A stretch of DNA of 64,000 nt from Desulfobacteraceae bacterium (GCA_024230435.1 JAAERL010000441.1:1-64000), one strand, 5' to 3'. Counted from the stretch's first letter, positions 3,205 through 20,566 are shown. Made by a program: numbers and translations. Notes: generated by a model not told the origin, from the letters alone.

Positions 3205-3488
3205 AAATGATTGAATTCTTGACTAATCCAACCTGGTTAGCCAATATTCTATTGGACTATAAAACGGCAATGGCGTGATTTATCCCCATTGCTAACAGTC
3301 GGTCATACCTGGTGTCCACTGCCGAAACAGGACAAGTTGTTCGAGACCAAGGCGTGCGGAAATTTTACCTAAGGCATATAGCTGGTATTGCAATGATAAA
3401 GTTTTGAGCACTACTAAGATACCTGGCAAATTGACCATTTATTGACTATTTATGGATGGACACTACCTATCGTTTTAGGAGGAGCAAC

Positions 3489-5360
3489 GTGGACTTAAAA
3501 AGCCATTGCCCTAAAAAAGTCGTTACGGCTAAAGAGGCAATTGCGGAAATTAAAAATGGCAGCCGGATATTAATTGGCACAGGTTGCGGTGAACCTCAAC
3601 ACTTGATTCGAACCATGGTTAAAAATACAAAGATTCAGGATGTTATGGTTTACCAGATGCTGTCTTGGACCATGGCGGACTATGTGAACGACCCTAATTT
3701 TCTGAGAAGATTTGCACTCAAACTTTTTTTTATCAGTTCCAGAATGCGCCGGGCGGCTTTCGAGGGAAAAATTGATTATATACCGGCCTATTTGTCCCAA
3801 ATTCCAAAATTATTTGAATCACAGCGCATCGGCCTGGATGTGGCCCTGGTGCAGGTAAGCCCTCCGGATCGCCATGGGTTTTGCAGCCTTGGGGTTTCTG
3901 TGGATATCACGCGTTCAGGGATGAATGCGGCCCGCTTGGTGATTGCACAGGTTAATCCGAAAATGCCGCATACCTGGGGAGATAGTATTGTCCATCTGGA
4001 TGAGATTGATTATTTTGTAGAGTACGAAGAGCCTCTTGTGGAATCCGTTACCGTAATAAAGAATCAGGAAGTGGCATTACGAATCGGGTATTATGTAAAC
4101 CAGCTCATAGAAGACGGCGCGACGTTGCAAATCGGTTTTGGCTACATGCCGAACGCAATTTTGCCCCATCTGACCGATAAAAAGGACTTGGGAATTCATA
4201 CCCAGCTTATTACCGATGCGTTTATTCCGCTGTTGGAAAACAAGATAATCACAAACAAGCGTAAAACCCTGCTGGAAGGAAAAGTGGTAGCTTCTTTGTG
4301 CATGGGAACCGAAAAACTGTATAAATACGTAGACAATAATCCCCAGTTTTATTTCCGTTCTTCGGAATTTGTGAATGATCCAACGGTAATTGCCAGGAAT
4401 GATAATTTTATTTCCATTTCATCGGCATTAGAGGTCGATTTGACCGGGCAGGTTTGCACCGACTCAATGAACCATATTTTTTATAGCGGTATCGGTGATC
4501 AAGTTGATTTTTTGCGGGGCAGCGCCATGTCCAAGGGTGGATTTTCAATTATTGCAATGCCTTCTACAGCTCAAGGCGATAATGTGTCTCGTATTGTGTC
4601 CAGCTTGAACGAAGGAGCTGGAGTGGCAACGACCCGAGGTGATGTAAATTTTGTGGTCACAGAATACGGTATTGCCGAACTTGAAGGCAAAAGCATCTTT
4701 CAGCGGGTAATGGAACTTTCCCAGATCGCCCATCCAAAATTCAGAAAAGATTTGATCGAGGCGGCCAAAAAGCACCATTATATTTTTCCGGATCAATTGC
4801 CTCCGCTGCAAGACGATCTTATCTTTCTTGAAAAATATAAAAAACGTCATGCCATCACTAATGGCAAAGTTGTGGAATTCAGGCCTCTGCTGCCTTCGGA
4901 TGAATTTGAATTTCGAAATTTTTACTACTCCCTAAAAGCAGAAACGATCTACATGCGTTTTTTTCACAAAATGAAACTTTTTTCCCACGAAGTCGCCCAA
5001 CAGCAGTGGGCCAGTGTTGATTATCGTCAAAACATGTCTATGATCGGATTGTGCCAAAAAGGCGGTCATCGAGAGATTGTCGCCATTGGCTCTTATGCCG
5101 ATGACGGTACAAAACGCGCTGAAATAGCATTTGTGGTCCGCGAAGATTTTCAGGGATTGGGAGTGGCTTCCATTCTGCTGGCTCAATTGGAAACAATTGC
5201 CAGGGAAAATGGGTTCAAAGGTTTTACAGCAATGGTCTTGGAAGAAAACAAGGCTATGGTACGAGTGTTTAAGAATCAGTACCCGCATGCAAAGGTGACA
5301 TACGCCGGAGTCGGTGAGATGCAGATCGTTATGGACTTTGATCCACCGGAAGTTGAATAA
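3489..5360 (+). CDS. Acetyl-CoA hydrolase/transferase-like protein fused to a GNAT domain (copy 1)
   Basis: I chose GTG 3489 because a perfect AGGAGG lies at 3477-3482; the frame is open back to 3456. The 623-residue protein has an N-terminal acetyl-CoA hydrolase / 4-hydroxybutyrate CoA-transferase fold (to about residue 445). A C-terminal GNAT acetyltransferase domain follows, with the acetyl-CoA motif as QGLGVASILLAQLE. In the transferase part the sequence GIHTQLITD aligns with the family segment GIHxEMxSDG, so the catalytic Glu position (near 238 in characterised enzymes) is Gln239 here. A covalent glutamyl-CoA mechanism is therefore unlikely. A second, diverged copy lies at 43280-45160. 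The role could be CoA-dependent acylation or acetyl-CoA sensing; I cannot decide. Confidence 0.85.
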   Translation: MDLKSHCPKKVVTAKEAIAEIKNGSRILIGTGCGEPQHLIRTMVKNTKIQDVMVYQMLSWTMADYVNDPNFLRRFALKLFFISSRMRRAAFEGKIDYIPAYLSQIPKLFESQRIGLDVALVQVSPPDRHGFCSLGVSVDITRSGMNAARLVIAQVNPKMPHTWGDSIVHLDEIDYFVEYEEPLVESVTVIKNQEVALRIGYYVNQLIEDGATLQIGFGYMPNAILPHLTDKKDLGIHTQLITDAFIPLLENKIITNKRKTLLEGKVVASLCMGTEKLYKYVDNNPQFYFRSSEFVNDPTVIARNDNFISISSALEVDLTGQVCTDSMNHIFYSGIGDQVDFLRGSAMSKGGFSIIAMPSTAQGDNVSRIVSSLNEGAGVATTRGDVNFVVTEYGIAELEGKSIFQRVMELSQIAHPKFRKDLIEAAKKHHYIFPDQLPPLQDDLIFLEKYKKRHAITNGKVVEFRPLLPSDEFEFRNFYYSLKAETIYMRFFHKMKLFSHEVAQQQWASVDYRQNMSMIGLCQKGGHREIVAIGSYADDGTKRAEIAFVVREDFQGLGVASILLAQLETIARENGFKGFTAMVLEENKAMVRVFKNQYPHAKVTYAGVGEMQIVMDFDPPEVE

Positions 5361-5421
5361 GAAGAAAAGAAAAAGTTCAGCTAAGGCGATTGGCGGAAAA
5401 AAAGGAGTTATATTAGCTCAA

Positions 5422-6108
5422 ATGGATGTGAATTCGGATCGTTGGATGCAGTTGTTGATCGATGCCGGTGCTCAAATGCAAGTGACCGTCGAGGAACACC
5501 AGGCCCGTATGATGGCTCAGCATGCTCAAATGTTACTTGCATGGAACAAAAAAACCAATTTGACGGCAATTGTTGACCCAATAGAAATAGCGGTTAAGCA
5601 TTATTTGGATTCCCTGGCGGGCTTAAGTTACATCAAATCAGGCAATCGCGTGCTGGATATGGGCACTGGCGCCGGATTTCCCGGATTGCCCTTGAAAATT
5701 ATGCTCCCCGGGCTTTCACTGGTCCTGGCGGACAGCTCCCGTAAAAAAATCAGTTTTATAAAGCACGCTGTACGAACCATCGGCTTAAAAGATGTTGAGC
5801 CATTGCAAGCGCGTGTTGAGCAACTTGCCCAAAATGAACGTTTCAGATCAGGCTTTGACGTAGTCACCTGCCGTGCACTTAAAGGTATTGATCAAATTAT
5901 AAAGTGGGCCCTGCCTTTTTTAAGTCCTAATGGCCGCATTGTGGCTTACAAAGCAGCCAAAGAAATAATTGAGACGACCGCCAGTAAAGAAAATAGTACT
6001 TTTGGCGCCTATGCCCGGCAATTCAAAATTCAGAGTGTTGAGTACCATCTTCCCATCAATAAAGCCTTCAGACGGATTCTGATCATCCAACCAAAAGCAA
6101 AAGAATGA
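5422..6108 (+). CDS. rsmG: 16S rRNA m7G527 methyltransferase RsmG (GidB)
   Basis: The product has the RsmG hallmarks: LLAWNKKTNLTAI, HYLDSLAGL and the SAM-binding loop VLDMGTGAGFPGLPLKI. It methylates N7 of G527 in 16S rRNA in the cytoplasm. I start at ATG 5422, giving 228 residues (family usual about 210); upstream codons in this frame lie in and just after the previous gene and lack a good start. The AAGGAG at 5402-5407 is somewhat distant (about 14 bases). It follows the CoA-transferase/GNAT gene by 61 bases and converges on the CarB-like gene. Confidence 0.9.
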   Translation: MDVNSDRWMQLLIDAGAQMQVTVEEHQARMMAQHAQMLLAWNKKTNLTAIVDPIEIAVKHYLDSLAGLSYIKSGNRVLDMGTGAGFPGLPLKIMLPGLSLVLADSSRKKISFIKHAVRTIGLKDVEPLQARVEQLAQNERFRSGFDVVTCRALKGIDQIIKWALPFLSPNGRIVAYKAAKEIIETTASKENSTFGAYARQFKIQSVEYHLPINKAFRRILIIQPKAKE

Positions 6109-6308: not shown

Positions 6309-9300
6309 TTACTTTGCCGCATAATCCTGAAGAGCCTTGAGTGAAGGAAAACCTTTTTTTCGAGCGGCAATACCTTTGGCTACTGCTACCGCGCTGGCCG
6401 GGGTGGTGATGTTGGCGATGCGGTAGCGAATTGCGGCTTTGCGGATATAGCTGTCGTCAATTTGGCTTTGGCCTGCGCTGGAGGTGTTGATCACCAATTG
6501 AACCCGGCCGTTTTTAATCTCGTCAAGCAGATCGGGCCTTGCGAAACCTAACTTGCGGACCATTTTTGAGTTGATTCCGTGGTTGGCTAACAAAGCCTGG
6601 GTTCCTTTGGTAGACATGAGTTTAAAACCCATTTCCTGGAAAACCCGTGCAGGCTCGATCATGCTTTGTTTGTCTTCATCGGTTACCGTTATCAGTACTG
6701 CGCCGTCAGTAGGCAGGCGGTAACCGGCCGCGTCCAGGGCTTTATAGTACGCCATGCCATATGAATCACCGAAGGCTGCTACTTCACCGGTGGCGCGGGT
6801 ATCAGCCCCTAACAAGGGATCTGTTTCCGGGAAAACGTGGAACGCAAATACAGCCGAGCGTATAAAAAAATAGGGCAAAGCAGCTGTAGAGATTTTAAGA
6901 TCGGCCAAACAGTGGCCCAGGATTAATTGGGTGGCCATCCTGGCAATGGGGATATGAGCCGATCTGGTGACCAAACCGAGATTTCGGCAGATACCGTATT
7001 CGGCATCCAATACATAGACCGAATCTCTGTAAATGGCGAAACGTACATTCAAAAGTCCTGTAATACCCGTTGAAACGGCAATTTTTTCTGCATATTCCGA
7101 CATGGTTTCAATATGCCGTGGCGAGAGGCTGTAAGGCGGTATGACCAAGGCGGAATCCGTTGCATTTACGCCGGCAAGTTCAATATGCTCTAAGATAGCG
7201 GCAACCCTGGCATGTTTTCCGTCACAAAGAACTTCGGCTTGGGCTTCAATGGCGTACTCCAGAAATTGTTCCAGTATCAGAGGTTCATCAGCATTGATAC
7301 GAATAGTTAATAGAAGCTCTTTGAACCGGGTTGCGTCCGTAACTAGGTTAATGCTGTTTTCACGGGGTTGACACGAGCGCAGGATAAGAGGGAATCCAAT
7401 CTCTTGCGCTTTTTTCATCGCCTCTTCGGTTGATTGAACCTTAACGGCGGTAGGCTGGACAATGCCAAGATCACGGATACAATCCCACAATGCCACCCGG
7501 TTCGCGAGCAGTTTTCGGGATTCGGCGGGAGAACCCAAAATTTGAACACCGTGTTCTTCTAATGTATTTATAAGGTGTTGATTCAACGGACCGGAGAACT
7601 GAGGCAAAACACCTGAAGGTTTTTCATGATCGATGATCTCTAAGATGTCTTGAATGCATAACGGATCGATAAACACGTTGCCTTTAATTGCCATGCCGGT
7701 TGTGACGCTGGTTAGGTTGTCGTTAACAACCAGGGCCTTGTGGCCCAGCTGCTCGCAAACGGCTGCGGCTTCAAAAACGCCAAAATCACACTCGGATCCC
7801 TGGCCGATCCGGTGGGGCCCGCTGCCCAGAATGAGAATTTTTGAGCCGTTGGGCTCAGGTTTTTTCGGGGCTTGCTTTGCATCAACGCCATAGACTATTT
7901 TGCCATCTGGTATGTTTGAGGTTTTCAGGGGCTTCCAATTGCGGCAACAATCAATGGTATCAAAAATGTGTTTCAGTTTCCGGACTGATTCGCCGGTGAG
8001 TTGAGCAAGCCGGAAAATGGTGAAACCTGCCGATTTTGCCCTGACCAGCAATTCAGTATCCGGTTGCTTGGGATCATGCGATTGCAGAAGTTTTTCTATA
8101 TCGGCAAGCTCTTGGACCTGTTTTATAAACCAGGAGTGCATTCTCGCTGTTTTCGAGACCGTATCGGTATCTATATTTTGCCTGAATGCTTCCAGAATAT
8201 AGAGCATTCTTTTGCTGTTCGCACTGCTGATAAGGTTCAAAAGCTTGCCCTTTGATTGATCCGCGGGCCGGTAAGCCAGTCCTGCGCCTTTTAGATGCGG
8301 TGTGGCCGAACGGGCGGCCTTTTGCAGTGCCTGCGCAAAGTTGGCCCCGATACCGAATGCATGGCCGCTGGCCTGCATTTTCGGTCCAAGGCGGTCTTGC
8401 ACTTGAGCCAGGCTGGTAAAATCCCAGACGGGCCATTTTACACCAATTGGAGCATCCTGGGACAAAACTCCTGTTTTGTCCAAGTTGGGTTTGCATGCCT
8501 GTGAAACAGATTGCCCCGCAGACAGCTTGCAAATGATGTCCTCTATAACTATCCCCATCATGCGGCCTGCAAAGGCGGAAGTTCTCGTGTAACGGGGGTG
8601 AACGGCAAGGATCAGGATGTTGTCCTGTCTGTGGCAATAGGCAAGGCGGATGGTGGCATTGCCTATAATATTGAGAAACTCTGCAACGGTTTTGGCCTTT
8701 TCGAATAATTGATCTAAAAATTTTGCGGTCAGCGTTTGGGCAGGACATACAGCGATGCTGTCGCCGGGATGGATACCGGCGCTGTCCATATATTCGACCG
8801 CTGCTGCGAGTTTTATTTGGCCTTTACAGTCTCTGAGGATTTCAAGCTCAATCTGGCGCCAGTCTCTCAGGCAAAGCTCCATGGTCAGGTTGCAGGAAGG
8901 TTCGCCTTTGATGGGAGTGATCGTTTTTATCAGTTCTTCCTGGTTGAAAACCAGAATTCCGTCCGGTATCAGGTCAGGATCATCACAACGCAGCACCACG
9001 GGATATCCAAGGGTCTTGGCGTGATCCAATGCCTCTTTGTCCGAAGTAATTTGCAGTTGCGCAGGAGCTGATATATCAATTTTAGCCAGAGCAGCCTGCA
9101 AAGCATCACGATCCAATAGGCAGGCAAGGTTTTCGGCGGGTGTTCCCCACAAGGCCACCTGATGTTTTGCCAGCACAAAGTTGTGATGCAGTTTTACAGC
9201 CAGGTCCAGCCCTGCGCGGCCCCCAAAACCGGCAAGCAACCCTTGCGGTCTTTCCTTGGAGATGATTTCCGACACAATTTCTTGTGTAAGTGGTTCCAGG

Positions 9301-9491
9301 TAGGTTTTTGCGGCCCAGTCCGCGCCGGATGAAATCCCATCGGGATTTGAGGACACAACTACTACGCGGTAGCCTGATTGTGTTAACGCCTGGCATGCCC
9401 TTGCTGCGCCCTGGTCGCATTCACCAGATTGACCTATCGATGTTGGGCCTGAGCCGATCAATAAAACCGTCTTATTTTCTGAGGCTGACAT
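6309..9491 (-). CDS. Divergent carbamoyl-phosphate synthase large-chain-like protein
   Basis: The 1060-residue protein has the full CarB layout. It contains a first ATP-grasp half (GSGPTSIGQSGECDQG), a CarB-type middle segment (KWPVWDF), a second ATP-grasp half (GSGPHRIGQGSECDFG) and a C-terminal MGS-like allosteric domain starting near VLITVTDEDKQSM. The start is backed by AAAGGAG. In both halves the ligand motif (E-x-NPR in CarB) is changed: LAVHPR at about 295-300 in the first half, and LDAEYG in the second. The Gln of NVQFA is Arg in both halves. The usual Gly-rich loops are also missing. No small subunit (carA) is adjacent. I therefore avoid the name carB; it may be a regulatory or repurposed paralogue. 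Confidence 0.8.
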   Translation of the reverse strand: MSASENKTVLLIGSGPTSIGQSGECDQGAARACQALTQSGYRVVVVSSNPDGISSGADWAAKTYLEPLTQEIVSEIISKERPQGLLAGFGGRAGLDLAVKLHHNFVLAKHQVALWGTPAENLACLLDRDALQAALAKIDISAPAQLQITSDKEALDHAKTLGYPVVLRCDDPDLIPDGILVFNQEELIKTITPIKGEPSCNLTMELCLRDWRQIELEILRDCKGQIKLAAAVEYMDSAGIHPGDSIAVCPAQTLTAKFLDQLFEKAKTVAEFLNIIGNATIRLAYCHRQDNILILAVHPRYTRTSAFAGRMMGIVIEDIICKLSAGQSVSQACKPNLDKTGVLSQDAPIGVKWPVWDFTSLAQVQDRLGPKMQASGHAFGIGANFAQALQKAARSATPHLKGAGLAYRPADQSKGKLLNLISSANSKRMLYILEAFRQNIDTDTVSKTARMHSWFIKQVQELADIEKLLQSHDPKQPDTELLVRAKSAGFTIFRLAQLTGESVRKLKHIFDTIDCCRNWKPLKTSNIPDGKIVYGVDAKQAPKKPEPNGSKILILGSGPHRIGQGSECDFGVFEAAAVCEQLGHKALVVNDNLTSVTTGMAIKGNVFIDPLCIQDILEIIDHEKPSGVLPQFSGPLNQHLINTLEEHGVQILGSPAESRKLLANRVALWDCIRDLGIVQPTAVKVQSTEEAMKKAQEIGFPLILRSCQPRENSINLVTDATRFKELLLTIRINADEPLILEQFLEYAIEAQAEVLCDGKHARVAAILEHIELAGVNATDSALVIPPYSLSPRHIETMSEYAEKIAVSTGITGLLNVRFAIYRDSVYVLDAEYGICRNLGLVTRSAHIPIARMATQLILGHCLADLKISTAALPYFFIRSAVFAFHVFPETDPLLGADTRATGEVAAFGDSYGMAYYKALDAAGYRLPTDGAVLITVTDEDKQSMIEPARVFQEMGFKLMSTKGTQALLANHGINSKMVRKLGFARPDLLDEIKNGRVQLVINTSSAGQSQIDDSYIRKAAIRYRIANITTPASAVAVAKGIAARKKGFPSLKALQDYAAK

Positions 9492-9620
9492 TTGCTCTCC
9501 TTTATTACAACTGTTTGGAATATTGTATAAAGTTCGAAATTAGCTCCTGTCACGCTGAAAATCAAGAAATTTGATTGACACAGTGAGGGTGATAAGAATT
9601 CTGAATTCAAACATGTTTTT

Positions 9621-9635: not shown

Positions 9636-9971
9636 TACCGCAACATGGGTGTCGATCACGTTCACTTTTTTAAGGAATTTACTGCCAAGATGGTAACCGG
9701 TTACCCAGAATGTGGTACTTTTTTTCCATATATTTTTTTGAAAAATTAAAAACAATTTTCAGAAAATCATGATTGGAAAGTTTCAGGGCCTAAAAAAAAG
9801 AAGGCTTGTGAGTTTAAGCCGAGGAGAAGGCTGAGCCATATCATAGCTAAAAATAGCTATTAATAATGGATTGTTGAAAAGTTCTTATGAAATTATGAAT
9901 CCGCTGCTGGCCACATTTTCATTCCAGCAGTTTAATGAATAACCGGACAAAAGCTATGTTGGCAGTAAATG

Positions 9972-10757: not shown

Positions 10758-11306
10758 ATGAATCCGTTTCAGGACATTGTTTTCTTAAAAGCGTTATTAG
10801 TTGTTCTATTGGCGGCTGCAATAATTGATTTGCATACTTATAAAATACCCAACCTAATTACGCTGCCTGCTGTCTCAGGGGCGCTAATCTACTATTATGG
10901 TCAGCATGGATTGGCCGGATTGCTTTTCAGTTTATCCGGCCTGGGCATCGGATTATTGCTTTTGATAATTCCTTACATGATGGGAGGGCTTGGCGGAGGC
11001 GATGTCAAACTTTTGGGCGTGGCCGGTGCATTTCTAGGGGCCAGGGCTGTGGTTGCCGCTTTTTTGTATATCGCCATTATCGGCGGAATTTATGCCGTTT
11101 TTTTTGTTCTGCTGCATCGTAATCAGTTTCAAGGTTTTTTTAAAAATATGAAAGTTTCGTTCTACGAATTTGTTCTCACGCGTAAAATTCCACCCGGCGC
11201 TGGCGCACTATGCACAGGTCAGCCTAAACTCAAGTATGGCCTGGCCATTTCATTGGGTACCGGGTTGTATATAATTGTCCAGGCAAATGGCTTAAAAATT
11301 TTATAA
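10758..11306 (+). CDS. tadV: Type IV prepilin peptidase TadV/CpaA
   Basis: The 182-residue polytopic membrane protein belongs to the peptidase A24 family. The two catalytic aspartates are visible: Asp24 in IIDLHTYKIPN and Asp82 in GGLGGGDVKLL. It would cleave the Flp, TadE and possibly TadG leaders at the cytoplasmic face of the membrane. It lacks the N-terminal methyltransferase domain of PilD, as usual for TadV. Start ATG 10758 follows a G-rich AAGGGGG site. It is the second gene of the Tad operon and is followed by rcpC after 16 bases. Confidence 0.9.
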   Translation: MNPFQDIVFLKALLVVLLAAAIIDLHTYKIPNLITLPAVSGALIYYYGQHGLAGLLFSLSGLGIGLLLLIIPYMMGGLGGGDVKLLGVAGAFLGARAVVAAFLYIAIIGGIYAVFFVLLHRNQFQGFFKNMKVSFYEFVLTRKIPPGAGALCTGQPKLKYGLAISLGTGLYIIVQANGLKIL

Positions 11307-11322
11307 AGCAAGGAGACATCTC

Positions 11323-12144
11323 ATGAAAAAATGGAAGACGATATTGCCAGTTGTGCTTTCTCTTGCCATTGCAGCATCGGGCAGTCTTTTTCTCTACCGA
11401 TATATTAAAGAGAAAACCGCACCGCCTCAAGTTATTAAAGTACAATCAAATGCGGTGCCTATTGCGGTGGCGGCTGTGGATTTGGCCTGGGGCACAAAGC
11501 TTACTGCCGGTATGATGAAAACGGCGCCCTTTTTCCAAGAGAGCCTTCCTGAAGGTTTTAGCACCGATATTGCGGCTCTGAAGGATCGTGTATTGATTGT
11601 TCCTTTAAAAAGGGGCGAACCTATTGTCGAGCATCGTCTGGCGCCTTTGGATATCAAGACCGGCGGTGTGTCGGCAATCCTGACGCCCGGTAAACGCGCT
11701 ATCGCAGTCAAGGGGGATAAGGTGATCGGCATCTCGGGCTTTATCAATCCGGGTAATCGTGTGGATGTGCTTGTTACGATGAAAGATCCTCGCAGCAAAA
11801 TAGATAAGACAAAAACCGTGCTGGGCAATGTTCTTGTGTTGGCCACCGGCACCCAGTTCGTGAAAAATGAAAAGGGTGAACCTGCTCCTGTGGATGTCTA
11901 CACACTGGAAGTAACACCGGACGAAGGAGAAAAGCTGGCTTTGGCTGCCAGCGAGGGCAAATTGCAGTTCGCTTTGCGGAATCTGATAGACTCTGAAAAG
12001 GTTTTGACCCAAGGGGCAACCGTGGCCAAGACGCTGGCTTCATTGACAGCTAAGCCAAAACCGGTGAAAAGGGGCGGTCCAGTAAAAGTTACCGTTGAGG
12101 TTATAAGGGGAAGTACTACTCAGCGGACAAGGGTCAAATACTAA
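11323..12144 (+). CDS. rcpC: Tad pilus assembly protein RcpC/CpaB
   Basis: The 273-residue protein has one N-terminal membrane helix and then an SAF-type domain. AVDLAWGTKLTAGMMK is followed by the KRGEPIVEHRLAP segment and the C-terminal region SEKVLTQGATVAKTL. CpaB/RcpC proteins sit in the periplasm with the secretin and may bind peptidoglycan. AAGGAG precedes the ATG. A 24-codon stump matching the last part of this gene survives at 22090-22161 in the duplicated locus, which shows that the duplication once included it. Confidence 0.9.
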   Translation: MKKWKTILPVVLSLAIAASGSLFLYRYIKEKTAPPQVIKVQSNAVPIAVAAVDLAWGTKLTAGMMKTAPFFQESLPEGFSTDIAALKDRVLIVPLKRGEPIVEHRLAPLDIKTGGVSAILTPGKRAIAVKGDKVIGISGFINPGNRVDVLVTMKDPRSKIDKTKTVLGNVLVLATGTQFVKNEKGEPAPVDVYTLEVTPDEGEKLALAASEGKLQFALRNLIDSEKVLTQGATVAKTLASLTAKPKPVKRGGPVKVTVEVIRGSTTQRTRVKY

Positions 12145-12170
12145 CATTTCCCAGTCAGGAAGGATATGTT

Positions 12171-13619
12171 ATGGGTTCAAGCAATTACATTAAATTAAGC
12201 AATACCGCTATTATTTTGTCTATCGTTTTGTCCCTGACGATTCTAGCCTCCAATTCGTCCGCAGGGCAGACAGTAACTCCTAAAAAAGTAAAACTCGTTG
12301 TGGGTAAATCCATGGTGTTGCAAAGTCCGGTTGCAGTTAAGCGGATTTCCGTAGCTGCGCCGGAAATTGCCGATATTGTGCTTTTATCCCGGAGCGAAGT
12401 CTATGTCACAGGAAAAGCGGCCGGCAGCACCAACTTGACGTTATGGAAAAACGGTTCGGTCTCGGCAATTTACGATCTTGAAGTGGCCTATGATATCTCC
12501 GGCTTAAAACAACAGGTGTACGAGTTGCTGCCTGACGAGCGCGAACTGCAAATTATCGGTACCCACGATAGCATTACATTATCGGGCAAAATTTCAAATA
12601 CGGCCAGCATGACCAATTTATTGTCCCTGGCCCGCGCCTATGCGCCCGAAGGCAAGATCAATAATTTGGTGACAGTGGGCGGTGTTCACCAGGTCATGTT
12701 GGAGGTTCGTGTGGCGGAAATGGATCGATCTACAACCAAAGAACTCGGAATCAATTTCAACTATTTTATTGACGAAGGCCGTTTTGGAGCAAGTGTGCTG
12801 GCAGGGCTCAGTTCCTTTGTTTTTCCTGAATTTAACAGCGATACCGGTAATTGGATTTTCGATTTGCCTGCTTCTTCATCAGTTAACGCCCTTTTTCGTT
12901 TCCAGCAAAACGGTACTACCTGGACAGGTCTTCTCGATGCTCTCAAGCAGGACGGTCTGGTGAAAATTTTGGCCGAACCTAACCTGATTGCCATGAGCGG
13001 GCAGGAAGCCGATTTTCTTGCAGGAGGTGAGTTTCCAGTGCCGGTGCCCCAGCAAGATGGCGCGGTCACAATCGCCTATAAGCGCTTTGGGGTTGGATTG
13101 ACATTCAAACCCACAGTGTTGAGCAATAAAAAGATAAGTATCCGGGTGGAGCCGGAAGTTTCGGAACTTGATTTTTCTACCGCTGTGCAGTTCTCCGGTT
13201 ATGTGGTTCCAGGGCTTTCCACCCGAAAGGCTGAGACCACAATTGAACTGGGCGATGGTCAGAGTTTTGCCATTGCCGGTCTTTTAAAAGAGACGGTTCG
13301 TGATGCCGTGCAAAAATTTCCCTTATTGGGTGATATCCCAATTATTGGAATGCTTTTCAGAAGCAGTTCATTTCAGAAAAATGAAACCGAGCTTGTGATC
13401 ATCGTTACGCCTCGCTTAGTTCAGCCTGTGGACGGTTCCAAGTTAACTGTGCCGACTGATGGCTATATTGAGCCAAATGATGCCGAGTTCTACCTCATGG
13501 GATTCATGGAAGGCATCCGAAAAAAACAAGAGGATACACCTGTGGGGCAAATGGAAGGGCCACTTGGCCATTCTTTAGCGTTAATCAACGAATCGACCGG
13601 GCCGGAAGCAATGCCATGA
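12171..13619 (+). CDS. rcpA: Tad secretin RcpA/CpaC (copy 1)
   Basis: The 482-residue protein has a signal peptide ending near NSSAGQ, then the pilus-secretin N-domain (LVVGKSMVLQSPVAVKRISV), a short ring domain and the C-terminal secretin domain with VPGLSTRKAETTIELGDGQS and FPLLGDIPIIGMLFRS. It would form the outer-membrane pore for the Flp fibre. AGGAAGGA precedes the ATG. A close paralogue lies at 22278-23738; 88 bp (12303-12390) are identical between them. It is followed by the small lipoprotein gene. Confidence 0.93.
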   Translation: MGSSNYIKLSNTAIILSIVLSLTILASNSSAGQTVTPKKVKLVVGKSMVLQSPVAVKRISVAAPEIADIVLLSRSEVYVTGKAAGSTNLTLWKNGSVSAIYDLEVAYDISGLKQQVYELLPDERELQIIGTHDSITLSGKISNTASMTNLLSLARAYAPEGKINNLVTVGGVHQVMLEVRVAEMDRSTTKELGINFNYFIDEGRFGASVLAGLSSFVFPEFNSDTGNWIFDLPASSSVNALFRFQQNGTTWTGLLDALKQDGLVKILAEPNLIAMSGQEADFLAGGEFPVPVPQQDGAVTIAYKRFGVGLTFKPTVLSNKKISIRVEPEVSELDFSTAVQFSGYVVPGLSTRKAETTIELGDGQSFAIAGLLKETVRDAVQKFPLLGDIPIIGMLFRSSSFQKNETELVIIVTPRLVQPVDGSKLTVPTDGYIEPNDAEFYLMGFMEGIRKKQEDTPVGQMEGPLGHSLALINESTGPEAMP

Positions 13620-13731
13620 TATGGGTTTTTTCGCCAGTGGCGGGTTTTGATGCCAACGCCACGCTGATTTTTTAATGAAAATATGGCTTTGGGTCCGTCA
13701 TTTGAAAGTCGATCCGGCCAAGGAGGATACC

Positions 13732-13974
13732 ATGCTCAAAAAATTGTTTGCTCTGGCAAGTATAACAGCCTTTGTCATTATGGCGACCGGTTGCACCGGC
13801 ACCCCAAAGCTTAAGCGGCAGTGGGGAAAATCCGTAAAGACAGCCAAACAGCTCCAGATTATCAACCCAGAGGCGCAAAAGGCAACGATACAGCCGCCGG
13901 AGATGGAAGGCCGCGCCGCCGGTTATGCCGGTGAAAGCTATCAGCAGAGCTTTAAACAAGTTACGGCAAAATAA
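13732..13974 (+). CDS. Small Tad-locus lipoprotein (copy 1)
   Basis: AAGGAGG at 13720-13726 selects ATG 13732; a longer frame exists upstream but has no ribosome site. The 80-residue product has a signal segment with lipobox MATGC and a short mature part. WGKSVKTAKQLQIINPEA and a C-terminal GESYQQSFKQ resemble short unnamed lipoproteins found in other tad loci. No enzymatic motif is present. It is duplicated at 23884-24126 with most positions conserved and always follows the secretin here. It may be a pilotin-like partner of the secretin, an inference from position only. Confidence 0.8.
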   Translation: MLKKLFALASITAFVIMATGCTGTPKLKRQWGKSVKTAKQLQIINPEAQKATIQPPEMEGRAAGYAGESYQQSFKQVTAK

Positions 13975-14030
13975 CGTGATTATTTGATCGGGACTTGCGG
14001 CAAGACCAAAAGTGGTTCTCAGGAGTAATT

Positions 14031-14489
14031 ATGAAAGCGATTGTCAAGAAGATAAAAACAAACAATACCGAGCAAGGCGGAGCGGCCGTTGAATTCGCCC
14101 TTGTTTTGCCGTTGCTGGTAGTCCTGGTTTTCGGCATCGTAGAATTCAGCATCTTGTTTTACAATAAGGCCATTATCACTAACGCCGGCCGGGAAGGCGC
14201 ACGGGCGGGAATTGTTTACGATTTTCCGGACAGACCCAATGATGCGGCTATCACAAATGTTGTAACCGCGTATTGCAATAGTCAGCTGATTACTTTCGGT
14301 GATATCACCCAAACACCATCTGTCACTGTCGCGAGGTCCGGTGCGGGAACCGGCTCGGATTTGAGCGTAACGGTTGGCTATGACTATGACTTTCTGGTAA
14401 TGCCAAATTTTCTGCGGGTGTTTTTCTCGAATACGGACATCTCTGACAGGATCAGGATCGAAGCTACGGCAGTGATGCGTTTAGAGTAA
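14031..14489 (+). CDS. tadE: TadE-family pseudopilin
   Basis: ATG 14031 follows CAGGAG; the frame is open upstream but without a start site. The 152-residue protein has a short charged leader and then EQGGAAVEFALVLPLLVVLVFGIVEF, the TadE pseudopilin motif with a Glu at position 5 after the Gly cleavage site. The mature part is a single helix with a polar periplasmic tail. It should be processed by TadV and help to start pilus assembly. It precedes tadG with a 10-base gap. Confidence 0.88.
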   Translation: MKAIVKKIKTNNTEQGGAAVEFALVLPLLVVLVFGIVEFSILFYNKAIITNAGREGARAGIVYDFPDRPNDAAITNVVTAYCNSQLITFGDITQTPSVTVARSGAGTGSDLSVTVGYDYDFLVMPNFLRVFFSNTDISDRIRIEATAVMRLE

Positions 14490-14499
14490 TTAAGGAATA

Positions 14500-15930
14500 A
14501 TGAATATGGAAAACAATCGTAGAAGAGACAATTTTAAGGTCTTGGAAGATGCCAATATGCCGTTATTGCGCCTGATTTGGATTCATTTTCAACAAGCTAA
14601 GATGGGTGCATACTCATTGCCTGTGCATATTGACGCAACACAGAAAATGAATTTAAGGACAAGCATGAGTGGTATATTGGCATTTTCCAAGACCCTTAAG
14701 GAACAAAAAGGAGTTACTGCGGTTGTATTTGCCTTAATGCTGTTTGTCTTTATCGGTATGGCTGCCCTGGCTATTGATTTGAATCATTTATATGTTGTCA
14801 GAAACGAGCTGCAAACTGCAGCAGATGCCGGAGCCTTGGCCGGGGCCCGCGTGTTGTACAATAACGACGGGACTAACGTTAACACCGGGGCCAACCAGGC
14901 CGGCCATGACGCAGCCGAGAACAACACCAGTGAAAATGTCTCAGCCGAAGTTCAATGGAACGGCAGCAATGCTTCGGATGATGTCCAGCGCGGGCACTGG
15001 CAGTTTTCCACCGGAACATTTACACCAAATGACGCCACGGCTCCCGTTGATCTTTGGAACGTTTCAACCGGAGAACTGGACGCTAATGTTAACTTTATCA
15101 ATGCGGTACGGGTGACGGCAAGACGCAATGCCACCCCAGCCACATCGTTTTTCGCAAGAATATTCGGTTTTGACAACTTTCAAATGCAGGCCAGTGCGGT
15201 GGCTTATATCGGTTTTGCGGGTTCATTGACAGATGATGAGGTGGATCAGCCTATTGCCATCTGCATGGAGAGTCTTCTTAATGCAGGAAAGTATAATTGC
15301 AACATCGGGCGTATGATCAATTCAGGTCAAAATCAAGCCACTAATGAAACCGGAGGCTGGACCAGTTTTAATCAGGACAATGATCCTTGCTCAGGCGGAA
15401 CAAACGCCCAGGAAGTTAGAAGTTTAGTCTGCGCCGGCGGAAATTCGCAAATGATTCAGCTTGGTCAGCCCATGGCCACCAACGGCGGCCAGATCCAGAG
15501 TGCGTTCAACCAACTGCTCAGTTGTTGGCAAACTGAAAGCGAAGGCGGCGCCGAACCCTGGAATCTAACCCTTCCGGTTGTTACCTGTCCAGGTAATAAT
15601 GTGGGTACTTGTGAGGAGGTGGTTGGGGCCGTCAATTTAAATGTCATCTGGATAACCGGGGCGGGCGAAGATCCTGGTTATAACAATGCTCCCACACAAA
15701 TGGGTGGATTGAACGATATAGAAGCATGGAGCAACAGCAGCCTCGACGGTTCGGTGCGCTGGGCTAGTTTTGTAAGCCATTTCAGTCTTAAAAACCAGGA
15801 CGGGTCGGATGCCCCCTACGCCAAAAAATCGATCTATTTTCTACCAGACTGCAAAGTGCATATTCCTACAGGTATCAGCGGTGGGAGAAACTTCGGTATA
15901 TTGGCCAAGATACCGGTCCTTGTGAACTAA
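14500..15930 (+). CDS. tadG: TadG-like pilus assembly protein with repeat-derived N-terminus
   Basis: The body shows the TadG pattern: EQKGVTAVVFALMLFVFIGM, then AIDLNHLYVVRNELQTAADAGALAGA, an N-terminal helix followed by the Tad-type periplasmic region, and a Cys-containing C-terminal domain. The frame is open from ATG 14500, giving 476 residues. The first 55 or so codons have no TadG character and overlap a MITE-like repeat copy (14553-14690). A better ribosome site (AAGGAC) precedes ATG 14665, which gives 421 residues starting MSGILAFSKTL. The true start may be either. Position in the operon supports the assignment. Confidence 0.82.
   Translation: MNMENNRRRDNFKVLEDANMPLLRLIWIHFQQAKMGAYSLPVHIDATQKMNLRTSMSGILAFSKTLKEQKGVTAVVFALMLFVFIGMAALAIDLNHLYVVRNELQTAADAGALAGARVLYNNDGTNVNTGANQAGHDAAENNTSENVSAEVQWNGSNASDDVQRGHWQFSTGTFTPNDATAPVDLWNVSTGELDANVNFINAVRVTARRNATPATSFFARIFGFDNFQMQASAVAYIGFAGSLTDDEVDQPIAICMESLLNAGKYNCNIGRMINSGQNQATNETGGWTSFNQDNDPCSGGTNAQEVRSLVCAGGNSQMIQLGQPMATNGGQIQSAFNQLLSCWQTESEGGAEPWNLTLPVVTCPGNNVGTCEEVVGAVNLNVIWITGAGEDPGYNNAPTQMGGLNDIEAWSNSSLDGSVRWASFVSHFSLKNQDGSDAPYAKKSIYFLPDCKVHIPTGISGGRNFGILAKIPVLVN
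14553..14690 (+). repeat. MITE-like repeat, copy 2 (inside tadG 5' end)
   Basis: GCCGTTATTGCGCC, GATTTGGATTCATTTTCAA and GTGCATACTCATTGCC align with 50114-50182, and GTATATTGGCATTTTCCAA (14672-14690) is identical to 10647-10665. The copy stays open in the tadG frame. Confidence 0.6.
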
Positions 15931-15967
15931 CCGGTGTGAGCGATGAACCGGGGACGGGAGAACCATC

Positions 15968-17122
15968 ATGGAAGAACAAAATTTAAAAGTGAGAGTAGAG
16001 CTTGCCGAGTCTTCTTTAAAAGAAGAGATGACGCGTTTGGTAAAAGCGTCCGGCGGCTTCACAGTTCTCGAAGCACAGGCCCGGGAAAAACCGGATTTGA
16101 TAGTCGCTCAGATCAATTCAGACCTGGAAGCATCAAAACATCGAATTCAGGCTTGCTTGTCCTCCCCATCTGTTAGTGAAGTATTTTTGATCGCGCCTGA
16201 TACCAACTCTCAAATACTGTTGTGGGCCATGCGTAACGGAATCCAGGAGGTATTTACACCTGCGTTCAAGGCCGGGGAGCTACAGCAGGCCCTGGAAAGA
16301 TTTAAGGGCCGGGCCAAAAAAAACGCCGTTGGCAAAATAAACGCTTACGGGCAAATAATCAGCATTGCCGGCGGCAAGGGCGGTGTGGGAGCCACCACTG
16401 TGGCCGTCAATCTGGCGGTCGCGTTGGGCCGGGCTCATAAAAATGCTTCCGTAGCTTTGCTGGATATGAACACCCTTTTTGGGGAAATTCCTCTTTTTCT
16501 GGAGATCAAACCGCAATTTCACTGGGGGGATCTTACCAAAGATATCAATCGGCTCGATGAGACATTTTTGATGAATATCCTTTCACAGCACAGCTCCGGT
16601 GTGCATGTGCTGTCATCGCCCGGACACCTTAACGGCCATCGACGCCCGACTCCGGAAATTATGCACCAGCTTCTGGAATTAATGAAGAGAATCTTTGATT
16701 ATGTGGTCATCGATTTTGGCCAAACAGCCAACGATACCGCTTTGAAAACCTTTGCACTGTCGACCCATTTGCTGCTCGTTGCTACTGCCAGCCTTCCCTG
16801 TCTGGCAAACGCCAATAAATTACTGCACTCGCTGGTAGATCTGGGCTTTGTAGAAAATGAGCGAACAAAAATTATCCTCAACCGTTACACCAAAAGCGGG
16901 GACATATCTGTCAAGGATGCCCGGGTTGGCCTGGGCCGCGAAATTTTCTGGATGATTCCCAACGATTACACTACGACAATGGCTGCCATCAACCAGGGCA
17001 AACCGCTGGCCATGGTAGCCCCGAAGTCTAAAGTGGCCCGCAATTTTAACGAGCTTGCCGTTACGTTAATGCCGGTTGAAGAAAAACCGGTGAAAAAGTC
17101 CTGGCGTCTTTTTGGTTCCTGA
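15968..17122 (+). CDS. tadZ: Tad localisation ATPase TadZ/CpaE
   Basis: The 384-residue protein has an N-terminal receiver-like domain (about 1-115) without a clear phospho-acceptor set. A ParA/MinD-type ATPase domain follows, starting at ISIAGGKGGVGATTVAVNLA (deviant Walker A KGGVGATT, about residues 137-144). TadZ proteins place the Tad machine at its site in the cell. A GGGAG site precedes the ATG. It lies between tadG and tadA, as in many tad operons. Length is normal. Confidence 0.9.
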   Translation: MEEQNLKVRVELAESSLKEEMTRLVKASGGFTVLEAQAREKPDLIVAQINSDLEASKHRIQACLSSPSVSEVFLIAPDTNSQILLWAMRNGIQEVFTPAFKAGELQQALERFKGRAKKNAVGKINAYGQIISIAGGKGGVGATTVAVNLAVALGRAHKNASVALLDMNTLFGEIPLFLEIKPQFHWGDLTKDINRLDETFLMNILSQHSSGVHVLSSPGHLNGHRRPTPEIMHQLLELMKRIFDYVVIDFGQTANDTALKTFALSTHLLLVATASLPCLANANKLLHSLVDLGFVENERTKIILNRYTKSGDISVKDARVGLGREIFWMIPNDYTTTMAAINQGKPLAMVAPKSKVARNFNELAVTLMPVEEKPVKKSWRLFGS

Positions 17123-17193
17123 AACAGGTGCAATCCCTGCGCTTTGCCAATCATTGCGCCGGACGGTGTTGATCATTAAATAAGGAGCAAACA

Positions 17194-18534
17194 ATGAATC
17201 GAATTTTGTCTTTTCCGGATCTGCCGGATGAAAACGAACAAAAATACATGCCCGATGAATATTTTGAGTTTAAATCAAAGATCCACGGCCGTCTGCTGGA
17301 CATCATCGATCTTTCCCTGATCGATACCCTGGATAAAGGAACACTGTCAGTGCATATCCGCCAGGCCGTAGATAAGATTTTGCGGGAAGACAAATTGGCT
17401 TTGCCGTTGAATATGAGCGAGCGTGAAAAGATTTTTTCCGAGATTCTTGACGAAGTATTGGGTCTGGGACCGCTGGAGCCTTTTTTAAAAGATCCCACGG
17501 TTTCAGACATTCTGGTCAACACCTATCGTCAAGTTTACGTAGAGCGGTTCGGTAAGCTCGAACCCACCGATGCGCGCTTTAAGGATGATGCTCATCTGAT
17601 GAAAATTATCGATAAGATCGTATCTTCAGTGGGACGCCGCATCGATGAGTCTGTGCCCATGATGGATGCCCGGCTATCTGACGGTTCGCGGGTCAATGCC
17701 ATCATAGCGCCTCTGGCTCTGGACGGGCCGATTCTGTCCATCCGGCGCTTTTCCGCCTTTGGCTTGGAGATGGCGGACTTGATTGAAAACCAGACGCTTA
17801 TTCCCCAAATTGAACAGGTGTTGTCCGGTATTATCAAGGGGCGGCTCAATGTGATTATCTCCGGTGGAACGGGCAGCGGTAAAACCACTTTGCTCAATGT
17901 ATTGTCCAGGTTCATTCCGGAGGCTGAACGTATTGTCACCATAGAAGATGCCGCCGAGCTGCAACTCAAACAGACTCATCTTGTGCGCTTAGAGACCCGG
18001 CCGGCAAACATTGAAGGCAAGGGCCGGATCGTGCCCCGCGACCTAGTGCGAAACAGCCTGCGCATGCGTCCGGACCGTATCATTGTTGGAGAAGTCCGCG
18101 GCGCAGAGGCCTTTGATATGTTGCAAGCCATGAACACCGGCCATGACGGCTCGTTGACCACCATTCACGCTAATTCCGCCCGTGACGCCCTGATGCGGCT
18201 CGAGACCATGGTAGCCATGGCCGGTTTTGACATCCCAAATGAATTTTTACGCCGTTATATTGCCTCGGCTGTCGATGTGGTCATTCAGGTCTGCCGGCAG
18301 GCCGACGGACACCGGAAACTGGTCAGCATGCAGGAAATTACCGGCATGGAGGGCAACGTCATCACCATGCAGGAGATTTTCTCCTTTGATCAAAGCCACA
18401 TCGATCCCCAGGGCAATGTCAAAGGCCGGTTCCGTTTCCACGGAATAAGGCCAAAATTTTGGAGTCGGCTTCAAGCAGCCGGTGTAATGCTCAAACCGGA
18501 GTTGTTTGACCCTGCCCAAGGTATAGAGGTTTAA
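17194..18534 (+). CDS. tadA: Tad secretion ATPase TadA/CpaF
   Basis: The 446-residue cytoplasmic ATPase of the VirB11/PulE group carries Walker [12 protein letters not shown] (Lys230), the Asp box region [11 protein letters not shown], Walker B-type [14 protein letters not shown] and the His box [14 protein letters not shown]. It powers Flp pilus assembly with TadB and TadC. AAGGAG precedes the ATG. This is the only motor ATPase in the window, so the duplicated secretin locus at 22-25 kb has none of its own. Confidence 0.93.
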
Positions 18535-18596
18535 GACCCTGGGCATTGTTTGGGGCAGACGCGTTTTTATTTGCTGTTATTTGCAGGAGGTACACT

Positions 18597-19565
18597 ATGG
18601 AATTATTAAGTGCGGGCATCATCATTTTTCTTGCTTCAGTAGTAATAATCGAGCTTTTAAAAATCGCCTGGAAGAATATGCATTCGGTTCAGCGGATTAA
18701 AATTCGAAAACGCCTGCAAAAATACGCGGCATTAGAGCAAAACAACAGTGGACTGGATATTGTGCGCAAGCAATTGATGAGCAAAACGCCCGCTGTTCAT
18801 GCCGTGCTGCGGCAAATTCCGGGGATGCGCCGCCTGGATCGTCTGATTCTGCAGGCAAACGGTGCTCATCTATTGGATTTTTATCTTTTATGGGCAGTTA
18901 TTCTGACAGGCGCCGGGTTTGTGCCGGCTAAAATTTTTCTTCATAAAACTTTTCTCGCGGTGGTTATTGCGTTGGCTTTTGGCCTGTTGCCCTTTTTACA
19001 TCTGATCCAGCTCAAGCAAAAACGTATGGAAAAATTCAAAAATCAGTTGCCGGAAGGGCTGGAAATGATCAGCCGTGCGCTTAAAGCAGGTCATGCCTTT
19101 ACCAGTGGTATGAAACTGGCTGCCGATCAGTTCAAGGACCCGCTGGGGCCTGAATTCGCGGAGACCTTAGATGAGATCAACTTTGGTGTAAGCGTACCCG
19201 ATGCCCTGCGAAGCCTGGCCAAGCGCATTGATTGTCAAGAAATCAAATACTTTGTTGTGGCGGTGATCCTGCAACGCGAAACCGGCGGTAATCTTGCCGA
19301 GATCATTGAGAGTCTGGCCCACTTAATCCGTGAAAAATTCAAGCTGATGGGCAAAGTTCAGGCCCTTTCGGCTGAGGGTAAATTATCTGCGGTAATTTTG
19401 GTAATGCTGCCGTTTTTTATTGTTTTTTATTTGCGCATGGTCAACGCCGAGTACCTCGGTTTGCTGTTTACCGATCCTATGGGGCGGATGATGCTGGCCG
19501 GGGCCGGTATCATGATGGCGGCCGGTATTTTTGTAATCCGCACAATGATTAAAATCAAATTTTAA
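18597..19565 (+). CDS. tadB: Tad inner-membrane platform protein TadB
   Basis: GCAGGAGG selects ATG 18597 (323 residues); an upstream open extension is not supported. The protein has an N-terminal helix, a central pair and a C-terminal helix around the T2SS-F domain, recognised by FKNQLPEGLEMISRALKAGH and ILQRETGGNLAEIIESLAHL. It forms the inner-membrane platform with TadC. It is followed by tadC after 15 bases. Confidence 0.9.
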   Translation: MELLSAGIIIFLASVVIIELLKIAWKNMHSVQRIKIRKRLQKYAALEQNNSGLDIVRKQLMSKTPAVHAVLRQIPGMRRLDRLILQANGAHLLDFYLLWAVILTGAGFVPAKIFLHKTFLAVVIALAFGLLPFLHLIQLKQKRMEKFKNQLPEGLEMISRALKAGHAFTSGMKLAADQFKDPLGPEFAETLDEINFGVSVPDALRSLAKRIDCQEIKYFVVAVILQRETGGNLAEIIESLAHLIREKFKLMGKVQALSAEGKLSAVILVMLPFFIVFYLRMVNAEYLGLLFTDPMGRMMLAGAGIMMAAGIFVIRTMIKIKF

Positions 19566-19580
19566 TGGAGGAGACAAACC

Positions 19581-20540
19581 ATGGCAGCCCATCACACCGA
19601 CACCCTACTGGTTCTTTCATTTGCTGCGTTTTGCGGCCTGTTTCTTCTGTGTGTGGGGATTTGGCAATTTGTGCGTGAAAATTCGAAACGGCGCAAGATG
19701 ATACGGAAAATCAAACACTACGCCCATGACTCCCGCACAACGTTTGCGTATTCTAACGTAAGCGAAATTAAATCTTCCAAACTGTATAATCTCTTCAGTG
19801 TGTGGGGCAGCAAGGTGGTAACGCCCGGAACCCATGATTATTCCCACATGCGTTTGCGGTTTCTCAAGGCAGGTATCCGGTATTCCAAGGCGGCTGAAAT
19901 CTGCTGGGGCGTAAAATGCTTTTTGGCTTTGATAATACCGGTTGTATTTATTATGACGCGTTTGGCGCTGTTTAAGCTGACCAACAACATGGCCACATTG
20001 GTCATTTGCGTTTTGGGGGCATTGGCGGGCTATTATCTTCCTGATCTGTGGTTGCGGCTCAAGGTTCAGGCCAGAAAAAAGAAACTTTTGGCAGCGCTGC
20101 CGGATGCATTGGATCTTATGGTGGTGTGCGTGGAAGCAGGCATGGGATTGGACGGCGCTTTTTCCCGGGTGGCTGAAGAAATTCATCTCAACAGCCCCGA
20201 AATGAGCGAAGAACTGAAAATGATGAACCTGGAAATGCGGGCGGGCAAATCCCGCCAGAATGCCCTGCAGGATCTTGCAGTACGATCCGATTTGGATGAG
20301 ATGAACTCTCTGGTCACCTTGTTGATCCAAACCGATAAGTTCGGCACCAGTATGGCCGCTTCTTTGCGCGTGTTTTCAGACGCTTATCGAACCAAGCGTT
20401 ATCAAAGGGCCGAAGAGCTGGCCGCGAAAATTCCAGTCAAGCTGGTCTTTCCCCTGGTTCTGTTTATCTTCCCTTCGCTATTTGCTGTCATTTTGGGGCC
20501 TGCGGCGATTCGTATTTGGCAAAACATTATCAGTAAATAG
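19581..20540 (+). CDS. tadC: Tad inner-membrane platform protein TadC
   Basis: The 319-residue T2SS-F-type protein shows ALPDALDLMVVCVEAGMGLD, then ELKMMNLEMRAGKSRQNALQDL and LIQTDKFGTSMAASLRVFSD, the usual TadC blocks, with helices at both ends and in the middle. It pairs with TadB. GGAGGAG precedes the ATG. No irregularities. Confidence 0.9.
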   Translation: MAAHHTDTLLVLSFAAFCGLFLLCVGIWQFVRENSKRRKMIRKIKHYAHDSRTTFAYSNVSEIKSSKLYNLFSVWGSKVVTPGTHDYSHMRLRFLKAGIRYSKAAEICWGVKCFLALIIPVVFIMTRLALFKLTNNMATLVICVLGALAGYYLPDLWLRLKVQARKKKLLAALPDALDLMVVCVEAGMGLDGAFSRVAEEIHLNSPEMSEELKMMNLEMRAGKSRQNALQDLAVRSDLDEMNSLVTLLIQTDKFGTSMAASLRVFSDAYRTKRYQRAEELAAKIPVKLVFPLVLFIFPSLFAVILGPAAIRIWQNIISK

Positions 20541-20566
20541 CAATTAATTTTAGTTAGGAGAAACAT

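Follow-up and report, generated by a model that had tools for sequence, protein, structure and literature searches.

A CarB paralogue of the Desulfosarcinaceae that has lost its catalytic residues and keeps a conserved allosteric domain

Introduction

What remains of the large subunit of carbamoyl-phosphate synthase (CPSase), CarB, if its fold is kept while the residues of both active centres are replaced? This question is raised by a gene, here called carBx, in a window of 64,000 nucleotides, the whole stretch of DNA that was analysed (Desulfobacteraceae bacterium, GCA_024230435.1, JAAERL010000441.1:1-64000). A first-pass annotation described its product as a protein of full CarB architecture lacking the metal ligands in both ATP-grasp halves, concluded that it is not a carbamoyl-phosphate synthase, and proposed either a nucleotide sensor or an enzyme with altered chemistry. 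The features of carBx and of its immediate surroundings are as follows.

3456..5360, plus strand: CoA-transferase with C-terminal GNAT domain, second locus anchor (TIGR03948 260 bits, below cut-off; GNAT part; synteny)
5314..6108, plus strand: rsmG, 16S rRNA m7G527 methyltransferase, convergent locus anchor (TIGR00138 149 bits; synteny)
6309..9491, minus strand: carBx, CarB-like pseudoenzyme of 1060 aa with ATG at 9491 (open reading frame and translation)
6405..6662, minus strand: MGS-like allosteric domain, residues 944-1029, better conserved in the clade than any other domain (PF02142 72.9 bits)
6903..7463, minus strand: C-half ATP-grasp domain, catalytic residues lost (PF02786 44.5 bits)
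6993..7010, minus strand: LDAEYG replacing the second E-x-N-P-R motif, residues 828-833
7041-7043, minus strand: R817, equivalent of Q829 (residue alignment)
7995..8231, minus strand: oligomerisation domain, less conserved in the CarBx clade than any other part (PF02787; 32% within CarBx)
8502..9113, minus strand: N-half ATP-grasp domain, catalytic residues lost (PF02786 87 bits and residue comparison)
8592..8609, minus strand: LAVHPR replacing the metal-binding E-M-N-P-R motif, residues 295-300
8646-8648, minus strand: R282, equivalent of Q285 (residue alignment)
9126..9476, minus strand: N-half pre-ATP-grasp domain, residues 6-122 (PF25596)
9497..9503, minus strand: strong ribosome-binding site AAAGGAG, 5 bases before the ATG of carBx (direct reading)

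Results

Fold and active sites

The CarB architecture recognised in the first reading was borne out by two approaches. Pfam recovered the complete domain order, with a pre-ATP-grasp domain in each half, CPSase_L_D2 in two stretches, and the oligomerisation and MGS domains. An AlphaFold2 model (26-sequence alignment; mean pLDDT 83.8, pTM 0.86) was found by Foldseek to match E. coli CarB over its whole length with a TM score of 0.92-0.93, and human CPS1 in its ligand-bound form with 0.89-0.90. Sequence identity to the E. coli protein is 30%.

The active sites differ from those of E. coli CarB, the numbering of which is used throughout for residue positions. Both motif changes were seen as first described: in the first half ILILAVHPR replaces ..EMNPR (E299A, N301H) and in the second VYVLDAEYG replaces ..EVNPR (E841D, N843E, R845G), while the Gln ligand of each half has become Arg in ATIRLAY (Q285R) and NVRFAIY (Q829R). 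The metal ligands Q285/E299/N301 and Q829/E841/N843 therefore read R/A/H and R/D/E in the focal protein and are lost or scrambled clade-wide. Our comparison added losses that had not been listed before, namely both Gly-rich loops (G175L and G176I in the first half, the G721/G722 pair in the second, so that LI and E stand at the loops), E208L, E215Q and H788N. The ammonia gate is altered as well, with A, C and M at C232, A251 and A314; gate residues were identified in PMC4655335, and these E. coli equivalents are our own mapping from that study. Several nucleotide-side residues remain, as had been noted, and comprise R129, R169, H243, R303, R675, R715 and E761.

The same pattern of losses was found in 10 further complete or near-complete relatives and hence does not represent a chance event of one genome. 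Across the 11 proteins, E299 is replaced by A, G or S, Q285 by K or R, N843 by R, E, S or Q, and Q829 by R in every case (11/11); the gate residues C232 and A251 are replaced in all of them (n=11). Most catalytic positions drift to differing residues between members, and G175/G176, N301, R303, R715, G721/G722, E841, N843 and R845 are all heterogeneous, with Q285 to K/R and Q829 to R as the clade-fixed exceptions. Metal ligands, Gly-rich loops and ammonia-gate residues are thus lost from both ATP-grasp centres. Because of these losses, and judged by known CarB enzymology, CarBx should be unable to run the sequence from bicarbonate through carboxyphosphate and carbamate to carbamoyl phosphate, and the loss of CPSase chemistry is, on sequence grounds, near certain.

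The canonical enzyme of the same genome

A further contig of the focal genome, C366, holds a carA-carB-purF cluster whose carB has every catalytic residue. Consequently, the focal gene is neither the only CarB of its genome nor a misassembled one, which is the case that would have spoken against the first-pass annotation. Together with the clade-wide loss of metal ligands, this canonical pair lends good support to the view that CarBx is no carbamoyl-phosphate synthase. The single carA of the genome lies on C366 with the canonical carB and not with carBx, and nearly every relative in which any carA was found likewise has a single one. In the window, no carA is adjacent to carBx, in agreement with the first reading, and it has no clear co-directional neighbour: rsmG is convergent with it, and the opposite strand upstream carries a tad-pilus cluster.

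Three kinds of CarB and their distribution

Based on 40 relatives, CarB proteins were sorted into three groups. CarB1 is the canonical subunit, located with carA. A second CarB, CarB2, is intact too; it shares about 52% identity with CarB1 and, within the order, 76-82% with a reference CarB2, and retains every catalytic residue tested. We had considered that all second CarBs of the order might be degenerate, and rejected this, as most are intact CarB2. The third group is CarBx. Identity between the focal protein and the other members is 32-45%, the closest pair shares 90%, and full-length CarBx proteins share 33-42% with CarB2 overall. A profile built from eight CarBx proteins (A1) scored 1604-1793 bits against full-length CarBx, about 1240-1330 against CarB2 and about 1000-1070 against CarB1, and thus separates CarBx cleanly from both.

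CarBx occurs in 16 of 30 Desulfosarcinaceae genomes and in all six genera, if split and partial genes are counted too, while no CarBx-scoring full-length match was found outside this family in a 389-genome sample of the order. The same 30 genomes comprise 11 with CarB2, two with both proteins and five with neither. Since several other genomes of the family are without CarBx, it is not essential family-wide. Carriers include Desulfosarcina widdelii PP31, D. alkanivorans PL12, D. cetonica and a Desulfatitalea MAG. Intact open reading frames were found in 11 complete or near-complete members, finished genomes included. Frame breaks interrupt the gene in two cases, the draft genome of D. cetonica and one Desulfobacteraceae MAG (L147; L053:8441-11388), by real loss or by draft error.

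CarB2 extends well beyond the order. It is also present in Phycisphaerae and Thermodesulfovibrionales (71-77% identity), so that it is 71-82% conserved across Desulfobacterales, Phycisphaerae and Thermodesulfovibrionales (six loci). Members of the latter two groups with CarB2 usually have a CarB1-type gene too; in one, only CarB2 was found.

Origin of CarBx

A maximum-likelihood tree against true CarB, the comparison by which the first-pass annotation proposed to check its claim, placed all 11 CarBx proteins on one side of a branch with support of 100/99, and CarB1 on another branch (100/100). The tree program warns of long branches, and the branching order within CarBx is unsure. Compared domain by domain, CarBx is closer to CarB2 than to CarB1 in five of six domains (in two by one point only) and level in the N-half ATP-grasp domain.

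The locus points in the same direction. In the window the gene order is CoA-transferase, rsmG (both plus strand) and carBx (minus strand). A matching order and orientation with an intact CarB2 was found in genome G054 and a mirrored one in G036, both of other families. In several Desulfosarcinaceae CarBx is flanked by rsmG and ileS, and in genomes without it these two genes are directly adjacent (four loci). A further apparent case of rsmG beside CarB2 (L143) was rejected, as that neighbour is not RsmG. Since tree, domain identities and locus agree, CarBx is most simply explained by loss of catalysis in the CarB2 of the rsmG locus, and this would have taken place in an ancestor of the Desulfosarcinaceae.

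Selection and inverted constraint

Three close CarBx pairs (82-90% identical) gave dN/dS ratios of 0.17-0.19, and six pairs ranged from 0.17 to 0.25. Given the ratios of the close pairs, CarBx is not a decaying pseudogene. Rather, essential catalytic residues are lost in an intact fold, while open reading frame and purifying selection are kept across several genera, as expected of a pseudoenzyme.

What selection maintains differs between the three groups, as the identities within each group and domain demonstrate:

CarBx: pre-ATP-grasp N 48, ATP-grasp N 43, oligomerisation 32, pre-ATP-grasp C 45, ATP-grasp C 57, MGS 70%
CarB2, same order: 83, 86, 69, 88, 77, 64%
CarB1, same order: 82, 80, 56, 82, 71, 54%

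Counts of invariant sites, taken over 11 CarBx, 19 CarB2 and eight CarB1 proteins, agree with this picture: 44, 36 and 29 positions, respectively, are invariant in the MGS domain and 27, 164 and 159 in the N-half ATP-grasp domain. The MGS domain of CarBx pairs evolves with dN/dS of 0.05-0.11, within the span of active CarBs (about 0.03-0.12), while the ATP-grasp domains reach 0.11-0.27 vs. about 0.04-0.10 and the oligomerisation domain of CarBx up to 0.58. Thus constraint is inverted in CarBx, with the MGS domain most conserved and the catalytic domains freed to vary.

The allosteric domain and the ornithine site

The allosteric domain, correctly recognised in the first reading, is present with 72.9 bits (PF02142), and K954, T974, T977, K993 and N1015 are invariant in all 11 CarBx proteins. 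Two of these, T977 and K993, are known to determine how UMP acts on E. coli CarB (PMC6245113). The MGS domain of CarBx is 56% identical to that of CarB2 and 43% to that of CarB1; gene conversion with either as the source of its similarity is unsupported, given that identity to CarB2 is only 56%. The other three invariant positions, K954, T974 and N1015, we take from effector-bound E. coli CarB structures to be IMP/UMP contacts. A second conserved stretch of CarBx, corresponding to E. coli 751-850 in the C-half ATP-grasp domain, includes two acidic residues of the ornithine site, E783 and D791. Within this site T1042 is kept along with these two residues, while E892 is lost (S/A/T).

Discussion

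A probable regulatory protein derived from CarB2

We consider CarBx to be a catalytically dead CarB paralogue that derives from CarB2 of the rsmG locus and that selection has retained as a regulatory protein binding an effector, and would give this reading a probability of roughly 55%. It takes up one part of what the first-pass annotation had proposed. Because conservation is inverted and the MGS effector domain is the most conserved one, a sensor or regulator is favoured, while altered chemistry is disfavoured by replacements that differ between members, Q285 to K/R and Q829 to R excepted.

As for ligand and partner, we infer that a nucleotide effector of the IMP/UMP type binds to the MGS domain and that the C-half changes shape upon binding and so transmits the signal. 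CarBx might then modulate a partner protein, much as 'prozyme' pseudoenzymes do; the best candidates would be CarB1, or CarB2 and PurF2 (a PurF paralogue described below) where present. The invariant Arg or Lys at the two Gln-ligand positions may provide a fixed positive charge near the former metal or phosphate position. One might go further and speculate that a whole CPSase large subunit now works in trans as a free-standing sensor of metabolites, in which the catalytic halves serve only as moving body while the MGS domain reads a nucleotide pool and controls CarB1 or another protein, as part of a wider, overlooked second set that includes CarB2 without CarA and PurF2 without catalytic Cys. 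This extended scenario we put forward tentatively, as possible rather than probable.

Several observations stand against a sensor. carBx lies alone, outside any operon, and its context names no partner; E892 of the ornithine site is lost; and the MGS domain could be conserved for its part in structure or in some other binding instead of nucleotide sensing. Furthermore, the poor conservation of the oligomerisation domain argues against hetero-oligomers formed through that face. This last point bears equally on a prozyme- or scaffold-like scenario, in which CarBx pairs with active CarB1, CarB2, CarA or PurF2 and the MGS domain is a contact surface and not a ligand sensor. Catalytically dead paralogues that activate an active partner are known (PMC5201418, PMC3663545), and complete genomes such as that of D. 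widdelii have CarBx and PurF2 without CarB2. However, the oligomerisation domain is the least conserved of all, the effector-contact residues themselves are invariant and not a surface alone, and the focal genome is without CarB2 and PurF2, so that we regard this scenario as rather doubtful.

That the remodelled sites were repurposed for ATP-grasp or other catalysis is unlikely in our opinion. Both halves are full-length and under purifying selection, some new residues have become fixed or almost fixed (Q829R, D753E, C24G), and H243, E761 and mostly H788 are kept in the clade. However, the heterogeneity of most replaced positions speaks against a shared new chemistry, and we know of no ATP-grasp protein without metal ligands that would be expected to transfer phosphate. 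Decay or a sequencing artefact might be suspected from the fast divergence (44% to the nearest relative) and from the two frame-broken genes, but the purifying selection in close pairs refutes this for the clade and the intact genes of 11 members, together with the strong ribosome-binding site, leave it very improbable for the focal gene. Least credible of all is that CarBx still makes carbamoyl phosphate with other ligands, e.g., as a backup working with CarA. Its fold and its score in one CarB family would fit, whereas the loss of both metal sites, Gly-rich loops and gate residues, a score below the cut-off of a second family, and the intact CarB1 of the focal genome do not.

Annotation and known systems

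These two family scores have a practical side. The focal protein reaches 749.9 bits in NF003671 (cut-off 599) and 689 bits in TIGR01369 (cut-off 1027), and the three CarBx proteins scanned gave 749-808 and 678-729 bits, respectively. Because the equivalog cut-off of NCBIfam NF003671 is passed, automatic annotation would be expected to name CarBx a CPSase large subunit. CarB is a textbook enzyme whose homologues are named automatically, and the clade would thus be mislabelled despite its lost active sites.

Compared to E. coli CarB (PDB 1JDB/1BXR/1CE8), CarBx is alike in domain order, length, fold and effector-site residues of the MGS domain, and differs in overall sequence, in the loss of metal sites, Gly-rich loops and ammonia gate, and in having no carA partner gene. 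CarB2 comprises its closest relatives, with the most similar MGS domain and the same CoA-transferase/rsmG locus in two families, but keeps every tested catalytic residue and is strongly conserved across phyla. Human CPS1 is likewise a CPSase with a dead ancestral catalytic unit, the glutaminase, and its C-terminal (L4) domain is the effector switch (PMC4655335); unlike CarBx, it has both phosphorylation sites intact and produces carbamoyl phosphate. Prozyme-type pseudoenzymes, such as the trypanosomatid AdoMetDC prozyme and the DHS regulatory paralogue (PMC5201418, PMC3663545), resemble CarBx as dead paralogues beside active ones; their folds are unrelated, and their pairing is demonstrated, whereas that of CarBx would be hypothetical. 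Our literature search found no earlier description of a CarB pseudoenzyme or of a CarB/PurF paralogue pair, although this does not prove that there is none.

Should CarBx indeed be a sensor, it would be a CarB pseudoenzyme in which evolution has parted catalysis and allostery. The allosteric half of a classic allosteric enzyme would then exist in naturally isolated form, and this would offer a way to study MGS signalling without catalysis. Since D. widdelii and D. alkanivorans, which carry CarBx, are in culture and their genomes are finished, this is testable.

PurF2 and further observations

In many Desulfobacterales a PurF paralogue, PurF2, is encoded beside or near intact CarB2 (ten loci, among them L059:7161-8567 and L057:7582-8988). 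At its N-terminus, MGG[LF]FG stands in place of the CGVFG that supplies the nucleophile Cys of PurF. The PRPP loop (EDSIVRGTQ) is retained, as is the CxxC near the C-terminus. CarB2 is likewise without a carA of its own, and both proteins thus seem to lack the glutamine-using part. In D. widdelii and some relatives (G396, G013, G008, G004) PurF2 and CarBx were found and CarB2 was not. A dependence of CarBx on PurF2 was rejected, since the focal genome and two others, G016 and G019, have CarBx without PurF2.

A perfect 14-base palindrome, GGTAACCGGTTACC, lies about 200 bases upstream of carBx (window positions 9692-9705). It was dropped as a regulon operator, as no other exact copy occurs genome-wide and none on the carAB contig. 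The tad/Flp-type pilus assembly genes immediately upstream of carBx on the other strand (window positions 10758-21547), named from reading of the open reading frames only, comprise a prepilin peptidase and CpaB-, CpaC-, CpaE/F- and TadB/C-like proteins. Finally, one relative possesses a second carA-carB pair (L060:7331-10612) besides CarB1 and CarB2.
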